From the NCBI GenBank assembly GCA_002938195.1, contig PTKX01000008.1, positions 1 to 41,543 on the forward strand: a DNA stretch of 41,543 nucleotides, written 5' to 3'. Source of the stretch: Alphaproteobacteria bacterium MarineAlpha5_Bin7. Its GTDB lineage: Bacteria > Pseudomonadota > Alphaproteobacteria > HIMB59 > GCA-002718135. Shown here one piece after another: positions 11,297-13,740 of the stretch. Under the pieces are notes generated by a model. It saw nothing but the letters and a program-made list of their open reading frames with translations, made no database searches and was not told where the DNA came from. Position 1 is the stretch's first letter; each line of letters starts with the position of its first letter. A program made the position numbers and the translations under genes.

Positions 11297-11380
11297 TTAC
11301 TTCTTTTTTTGTCTTCTTTTGCTTCTGCGGTATTTAGAGCCTCTTTTTCTACGTCCTCTATGTTTTTTTGGATATCCCAT
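11297..11380 (-). CDS. Tiny, extremely basic protein (27 aa), possible RNA/ribosome-associated peptide
   Basis: Not in ORF track. Reverse-strand ATG at 11378-11380 to TAA at 11297-11299: MGYPKKHRGRRKRGSKYRRSKRRQKKK; 16 K/R, 1 H, 0 D/E; GC-containing Arg codons in an otherwise AT-rich gap. Confidence 0.6.
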   Translation of the reverse strand: MGYPKKHRGRRKRGSKYRRSKRRQKKK

Positions 11381-11420
11381 TGTTGGCTTTAAATATAGAA
11401 AAAATACATTAAGTCAAAGA

Positions 11421-12308
11421 TTAATAGCGCCAATCTTTTGCTTCATTATATAAAAAATCTCTGAATAACTCTAATCTTCTGTCATTTTTAAATTCTTCAG
11501 TATAAACAAAATAAGTTTGATATGATGGTCCCTCAATATTAGGCAAAACTCTCACCAAGTGTGGTTTATCTGCTACCATATAATCAGGCAATGAAGCAAG
11601 ACCAGCACCGTTTTCAACAGCAAGAGACATACCATAGATACTATTTACTCTAAACTTTGGCCTCCTTTTCCCTTTTTCTTTTCCAATTTTTAATATCCAA
11701 TCGATATTTGAAATAGGAGATGGCAATCCTATACCGAAACAAATAAGATTATGCTTATTTAAGTCATTAATATTTCTTGGAATTCCTTTTTCTTTTAAAT
11801 AGTCAGAAGAACCATAAATATGATTATGGAAATTAACAAATTTTTTAAAGATTAAATTTCCCTGAGTAGGTTTTTTTACTCTTACAGCTATATCAGCAAC
11901 TCTATTATTTAAATCAATCTCTTCATCACTCATTAACAAGCTAATGTCCATATCTGGAAATTGATCTAAGAATTTATTAATTCTAGGAGTTAGCCAAGTT
12001 GAACCAAAACCTACAGTTGTATTAATAATTAGTTTACCACTAGGTTTTGTCTTTTTATCTAATAATTTTTTTTCAAAACCTGCAATTGAAAGATTAATAT
12101 CTTTAACTGTATTAAATAAATTTTCTCCTTGTTCTGTTAATACAACACCTTTTTGATGGCGAATAAACAACGCAGTTTTCAAATCAATTTCTAAATCTTG
12201 AATTTGCCGACTTAAAGCAGACTGACTAATATTTAATTTAATGCTAGCTTTCGAAATACTTTTATTTATGGCAACTTCATAAAAAGTTTTTAATTTATCC
12301 CAGTCCAT
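11421..12308 (-). CDS. LysR family transcriptional regulator
   Basis: 295 aa; N-terminal HTH SISKASIKLNISQSALSRQIQDLEIDLKTALFIRHQKGVVLTEQG. Confidence 0.93.
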   Translation of the reverse strand: MDWDKLKTFYEVAINKSISKASIKLNISQSALSRQIQDLEIDLKTALFIRHQKGVVLTEQGENLFNTVKDINLSIAGFEKKLLDKKTKPSGKLIINTTVGFGSTWLTPRINKFLDQFPDMDISLLMSDEEIDLNNRVADIAVRVKKPTQGNLIFKKFVNFHNHIYGSSDYLKEKGIPRNINDLNKHNLICFGIGLPSPISNIDWILKIGKEKGKRRPKFRVNSIYGMSLAVENGAGLASLPDYMVADKPHLVRVLPNIEGPSYQTYFVYTEEFKNDRRLELFRDFLYNEAKDWRY

Positions 12309-13009: not shown

Positions 13010-13360
13010 ATGAAATCAATTATTAATAAACCTTGGGGATCATATACTGTCATTGAAAATGGAAAAGATTATGTTGTTAAAAAGCTTATTATTAAAACCA
13101 ATGAAAAAACTTCTCTTCAAAGCCATGATTATAGATCAGAACATTGGATAATTGTTCAAGGAATCGCAGAAGTTACAATCAATAAAGAAACAAAAACTAT
13201 TAGAGCTAATGAAAATATCTTCATACCCACTAAAGCAAAACATCGTATTGCTAATCAACATAATGAAGATTTAGTAATTATTGAAATATGGTATGGCAAA
13301 AGATTAGAAGAAAAAGATATTATTAGATATGACGATAAATATAATAGAGTAACAGAATGA
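13010..13360 (+). CDS. Cupin-type mannose-6-phosphate isomerase-like protein (type II PMI C-terminal domain only)
   Basis: ATG at 13010 inside track ORF 12977-13360: MKSIINKPWGSYTVIENGKDYVVKKLIIKTNEKTSLQSHDYRSEHWIIVQGIAEVTI...; matches ManC/PMI-II cupin pattern. Confidence 0.85.
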   Translation: MKSIINKPWGSYTVIENGKDYVVKKLIIKTNEKTSLQSHDYRSEHWIIVQGIAEVTINKETKTIRANENIFIPTKAKHRIANQHNEDLVIIEIWYGKRLEEKDIIRYDDKYNRVTE

Positions 13361-13740
13361 TTGTTAATACACCTATATCATTGGGAGAATTAATAGATAA
13401 GATATCAATTTTGATTATTAAGGAAAAGAATATCCAGGATAGCGCAAAACTTGTTTTAATAAAAAATGAATTAAAATTATTAAACGATACAGTAAGCAAA
13501 GTTCTTAAAGTAGACAATATTAAGGATTATTTAGATAAACTCATTGAAATTAATTCTCAACTCTGGAAAATTGAAGATGATATAAGAGAATGTGAACATA
13601 AAAAAAATTTTGATGAAAATTTTGTTCAATTAGCAAGATTAGTTTATGTTACTAATGACAAAAGAGCAGCTATTAAGCTTGAAATAAATAAAAAATTTGG
13701 CTCAGAAATTATTGAAGTTAAATCATATAATAAATATTAA
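13357..13740 (+). CDS. DUF6165-like family protein
   Basis: 127 aa; ISLGELIDKISILIIKEKNIQD..., LWKIEDDIRECE; 4-bp ATGA overlap with the cupin gene. Confidence 0.65.
   Translation: MIVNTPISLGELIDKISILIIKEKNIQDSAKLVLIKNELKLLNDTVSKVLKVDNIKDYLDKLIEINSQLWKIEDDIRECEHKKNFDENFVQLARLVYVTNDKRAAIKLEINKKFGSEIIEVKSYNKY

Follow-up and report, generated by a model that had tools for sequence, protein, structure and literature searches.

The ribosomal protein bL37 lies in a pocket of the 23S rRNA close to the peptidyl transferase centre. The mycobacterial protein is 24 aa long, and the same pocket is filled in Borrelia by an N-terminal extension of uL30 (PMC10618245). Another very small protein, the bS22 of Borrelia, consists of 61% K/R and was unannotated before cryo-EM (PMC10618245). 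The gene for bTHX, also called S31 (Thermus Thx), usually lies outside the ribosomal protein operons (PMC3353972). Phages can contribute as well: the bS21 encoded by pelagiphage HTVC008M has been recovered in ribosome fractions (PMC6375957).

The window, by which we mean the whole stretch of 41,543 nucleotides analysed here, carries the gene for a 27-aa protein which we call mini. Genomes compared with it are grouped by family. Families f1 and f2 belong to the order of the window (HIMB59), f99 is Pelagibacteraceae, f227 is another family of Pelagibacterales, and f25 stands in the collection as a separate order of six genomes; to equate it with SAR11 subclade IV would be guesswork. The features of the locus are:

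11297 to 11380, minus strand: gene for the 27-aa highly basic protein, 84 nucleotides including the stop codon, translation MGYPKKHRGRRKRGSKYRRSKRRQKKK followed by the stop
11336 to 11374, minus strand: core codons 3-15, YPKKHRGRRKxGS, invariant save position 13 in the aligned bacterial and phage homologues
10823 to 11215, minus strand: AhpD/CMD gene, on one side of the mini gene
11421 to 12308, minus strand: LysR gene, on the other side
11410 to 11417, minus strand: -35-like TTGACTTA just past the LysR stop, at least 95% conserved in 47 f1 sequences
11392 to 11397, minus strand: possible -10-like TATATT, the window's copy, read off the sequence and weak, with the relatives' TTGTATA altered and the spacing short

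The sequence-only reading had described an ATG-to-TAA frame of 27 codons on the minus strand between the CMD and LysR genes, with 16 K/R, one H and no acidic residue; the translation agrees and the composition is exact (59% K/R). The gene is present in single copy, it shares its strand with both neighbours, and rpe lies upstream of the LysR gene. Further along, at 13357-13740 on the plus strand, the window encodes a 127-aa protein with a marginal match to DUF6165/DUF4254, a family of unknown function.

Mini resembles each of the described proteins in some respect. Like bTHX it has 27 aa, an MG start, a KKK end and a very basic composition, but the bTHX motif GKGDxxTxRGK...GTYGxxRPRK is absent from it. 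As homology, the earlier comparison with bTHX fails: the profile of that protein (TIGR04560) put none of 142 class genomes, all Alphaproteobacteria and G000 and G036 among them, over the cut-off while the control, Thermus composti, was positive, and alignments of the two proteins scored like composition-matched shuffles (local Z -1.1 to 0.9, global Z 0.35 to 1.6). With bS22/mS38 (structural analogue eL41) it shares a length of ~30 aa, ~60% K/R, a previously unannotated gene and restriction to a lineage. Here too homology was rejected, as the alignment score equals that of shuffles and the COX24_C profile (PF08213) found nothing over the cut-off in 20 genomes, 15 of them carriers, the Corynebacterium control being positive. 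Both bL37 and mini are tiny basic peptides, and mini is found mostly where uL30 is missing; the alignment gave Z of at most 0.5 against shuffles, so that the likeness is one of composition only and homology was again rejected. The phage bS21 is, like mini, a small ribosomal-type protein common to SAR11 hosts and their phages (PMC6375957), but it differs in sequence and length, and bS21 itself is present in the carriers tested. Segments of bL20, bL32 and uS12, also considered as look-alikes, agree with mini in basic patches only and were set aside, the PDB profile searches being empty.

No match for mini was found in Pfam, NCBIfam or PHROG, and profiles A2 and A3 found none among PDB chains at E<=10, a search which the HMMER filters weaken for short biased queries. 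Both the HMMER and the BLAST filters are weak for such sequences, so that very distant homology may have been missed. Within the libraries searched, mini represents an unnamed family of tiny basic, probably ribosomal proteins. Several misannotated coding sequences have been reported in intergenic regions of P. ubique (Meyer et al., PMC2704228), and mini may already have been seen among them.

The mini frame is a genuine protein-coding gene under strong purifying selection. Homologues aligning over residues 1-27 without internal stops and 81-96% identical were found in 55 of 60 relatives; of the relatives with a completeness of 90% or more and no more than 5% contamination, all 20 have the 27-aa protein, its start and stop unchanged. 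If the six-genome order and the Pelagibacteraceae are included with the relatives, the identity of the 27-aa homologues ranges from 74 to 96%. The 103 distinct nucleotide versions of the bacterial frame encode only 18 protein variants, all of 27 aa. Their mean pairwise difference at codon positions 1, 2 and 3 is 0.16, 0.12 and 0.39, which makes third positions 2-3 times more variable than the first two, and within families pN/pS is 0.04-0.08 with synonymous sites near saturation. The loss of frame in close relatives which the sequence-only reading had named as its refutation was not seen, and its supposition of a real small protein below the annotation cut-offs is supported by this conservation. 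The frame goes far beyond chance, the same start and stop recurring in 55 of 60 relatives. A chance frame, or a leader peptide over a regulatory RNA, with no functional protein made, could be suspected from the short length, the position in a spacer and the lack of a database family. It is hardly credible: the codon-position pattern refutes it, the low pN/pS and a start and stop common to four families and the phages argue against it, the downstream genes differ, and an Rfam search at the frame found no RNA family, for which reason an RNA element at the locus was also rejected.

Within the protein the conservation is unevenly spread. The stretch YPKKHRGRRKxGSxxR is invariant, and 12 of the 13 core residues are unchanging in bacteria and phages alike, K5, K6, R8, R10, R11 and K12 never being exchanged between K and R. 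Positions 16-27 vary freely, K and R replacing one another at will towards the C-terminus.

In a class-wide profile search mini was found in f1, f2, f25 and f99 at E<=3e-12; all other matches had E>=1e-3, which is background level, and mini was absent from the remaining Alphaproteobacteria. A sample at phylum level gave no carrier besides the genome of the window. All six f25 genomes have the gene, as have 59 of 117 genomes sampled from the order of f99, every one of them f99; almost every Pelagibacteraceae genome in the sample is a carrier. Among the matches listed no f227 genome was positive, and two near-complete f99 genomes, G720 and G725, are negative; these two also have no close homologue of the Cys/Met lyase gene found beside mini in f99 and no uL30. 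Since f227, G720 and G725 do without mini, it must be dispensable. An apparent loss in G785 was rejected, the contig ending inside the gene. Among the matches listed in the named collection, carriers are uncultured Alphaproteobacteria single-cell genomes, Pelagibacteraceae, SAR11 SAGs and Ca. Pelagibacter ubique HIMB058; rarer ones may exist elsewhere.

The neighbours of the gene change from family to family: f1 has LysR and CMD, f2 has an MFS transporter and SelR, f25 has a gene of the sigma-70 family (rpoH-like), and f99 has a Cys/Met lyase, a Frag1-like gene, mnmA or biotin carboxylase. Mini is therefore a stand-alone gene, and it was never found in a ribosomal protein operon. In relatives of the window TTGACTTA is followed by a -10-like TTGTATA 11-12 nt ahead of the ATG, a layout which in f1 suggests a very short leader. 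A generic sigma-70 promoter scan gave no score for the window's putative TTGACTTA/-10 promoter, and the promoter pattern, run as a regulon probe, had no match in the window because the window's own -10 differs. In many f99 genomes the ATG is preceded by another element, TTGATAAC...GACAATGCTATATCC, as well as by a purine-rich AAGGA; at f99 loci such as L080, L087 and L109 the element is conserved and is followed by a leader of ~35 nt with AAGGA. The element is possibly a high-activity promoter or a regulatory motif of Pelagibacter.

Mini is also carried by phages. A scan of viral contigs gave 13 relatives, and with DNA patterns for the core the number rose to 26 loci, on contigs from nine or more kinds of phage. 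These copies are 28-40 aa long with an identical core and variable tails. The contigs stem from genuine phages. One group, with portal, holin, GroES and head genes, is related to the pelagiphages HTVC027P and HTVC023P; other contigs have integrase and recombination genes, DNA polymerase or DNA ligase. The cultured relatives HTVC027P, HTVC023P, 023Pt_psg01 and DSL-LC04 have no mini in the regions examined. A tblastn search of the phage collection with the peptide, which the low-complexity filter may mask, gave no match, and four phage homologues matched none of the PHROGs families.

Carriage by so many kinds of phage, the patchy distribution among orders and the identity of phage L188 and f1 over 24 residues would suit a phage gene that was domesticated, or passed on time and again between marine Alphaproteobacteria, and has no housekeeping role. 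We regard this as very unlikely, as near-universal retention in streamlined genomes argues for a use and silent sites of phage and bacterial copies have diverged about as much as those of different bacterial families. With silent sites so diverged no recent transfer between phage and host is visible and recent transfer was rejected; the exchange must be old.

Some phage copies adjoin DNA ligase or a nuclease/HNH cluster, others virion genes, between those for the portal and the major head protein; these positions are no pointer to translation. Together with the high K/R content, the lack of acidic residues and the occurrence beside recombination nucleases, they would fit a small protamine- or nucleoid-like peptide that compacts the DNA of streamlined cells and of phage heads. 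Peptides that condense DNA through their charge as a rule drift in sequence, however, whereas mini keeps its core down to single choices of K or R. The arrays of tRNA and tmRNA genes in three related phages (L202, L213 and L223), where mini lies on the same strand inside groups of 11, 14 and 2 such genes, do not fit a DNA condenser either, and we hold this explanation to be unlikely, though deserving of some weight. Two of the three arrays include tmRNA, and an RNA ligase is found near mini in L195 and L202. The array of L202 (1-10764) has 10 tRNAs and that of L213 (1-11301) has 13, each with a tmRNA (tag peptides AEPLKLAA and ADALPMAA); both also have dCMP deaminase, and the RNA ligase is in that of L202.

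The same arrays with RNA ligase, and the patchy loss of the gene, could indicate a small RNA-binding factor that is not part of the ribosome itself, such as a chaperone of tRNA/tmRNA or rRNA maturation or a hibernation factor. Nothing specific speaks against such a factor; constant length and sequence suit a stoichiometric structural part equally. We consider it rather improbable. Our preferred reading, which we think probable though by no means assured, is that mini is a very small protein of the ribosome, or one that binds rRNA, which is confined to certain lineages and is carried by phages too. The tiny size, the constant length, the near-universal presence in streamlined lineages and the tRNA/tmRNA contexts make an accessory ribosomal protein the best reading; mini shows the purifying selection at the protein level and the near-universal presence in its lineage by which we judged a ribosomal protein, with f227, G720 and G725 as exceptions. 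The fixed choice of K or R in the core together with a free tail points to a specific pocket and not to bulk charge. The independently transcribed gene would thus produce a 27-aa protein binding structured RNA, most likely an accessory ribosomal protein, whose invariant N-terminal half would fit into a particular pocket of the rRNA and whose variable lysine/arginine tail would offset the charge of the backbone; several phages would bring a copy of mini, as is the case for bS21. The ribosomal or nucleic-acid-binding role proposed by the sequence-only reading gains from the conservation, the independence of context and the phage tRNA arrays; its ribosome association as such, like the translation of mini and the exact site, is something we infer.

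The distribution of uL30 is nearly reciprocal. It is absent from all 14 f1, f2 and f99 genomes tested, which are carriers of mini save G720 and G725, and present in 5 of 5 f227 genomes, 2 of 2 f25 genomes and 8 of 9 other Alphaproteobacteria. In G264 (f99) and G036 (f2) rpsE directly abuts rplO and rpmD is cleanly missing, while f25 and f227 have rpmD between the two. The gap is located at ~737.3-737.8 kb in G264 (locus L279) and at ~939.2-939.7 kb in G036 (locus L349). Thus f25 has both mini and uL30, carriers of the HIMB59 order and the Pelagibacteraceae have mini only, f227 has uL30 only, and G720 and G725 have neither. Loss of bS21 as an alternative correlate was rejected, the protein being present in carriers and in 29 of 30 genomes tested. 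uL30 has been lost elsewhere too, for example in cyanobacteria (PMC3353972). The pattern, which reflects few independent events, hints at a compensatory role of mini on the 50S subunit, and the co-occurrence suggests, as an idea formed post hoc, that mini may make uL30 dispensable. A tiny peptide near uL30 has a precedent since the Borrelia uL30 extension and bL37 share a pocket. In its boldest form, which is speculative and in our estimate improbable, mini would be a new 50S protein overlapping uL30 in function (or filling the bL37/uL30 region) that allowed at least two losses of uL30, in the HIMB59 order and in the Pelagibacteraceae; f227 would have kept uL30 and lost mini, and phages would use mini to customise host ribosomes.

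The relation of HIMB59 to SAR11 is disputed, and sequence trees attribute it to compositional artefact (PMC6447387, PMC10308909). The distribution of mini over the HIMB59 order, the six-genome order and Pelagibacteraceae, and not over other Alphaproteobacteria, offers a new character for this question; with phage carriage and losses both transfer and retention are plausible, and transfer has to be set against shared ancestry as an explanation. Few cells on Earth are as abundant as those of SAR11 and its look-alikes. That a conserved protein of such cells has no name in any family library searched is a notable gap and, if it is ribosomal, mini would be an extra part in the commonest marine ribosomes and a new translation gene carried by phages.
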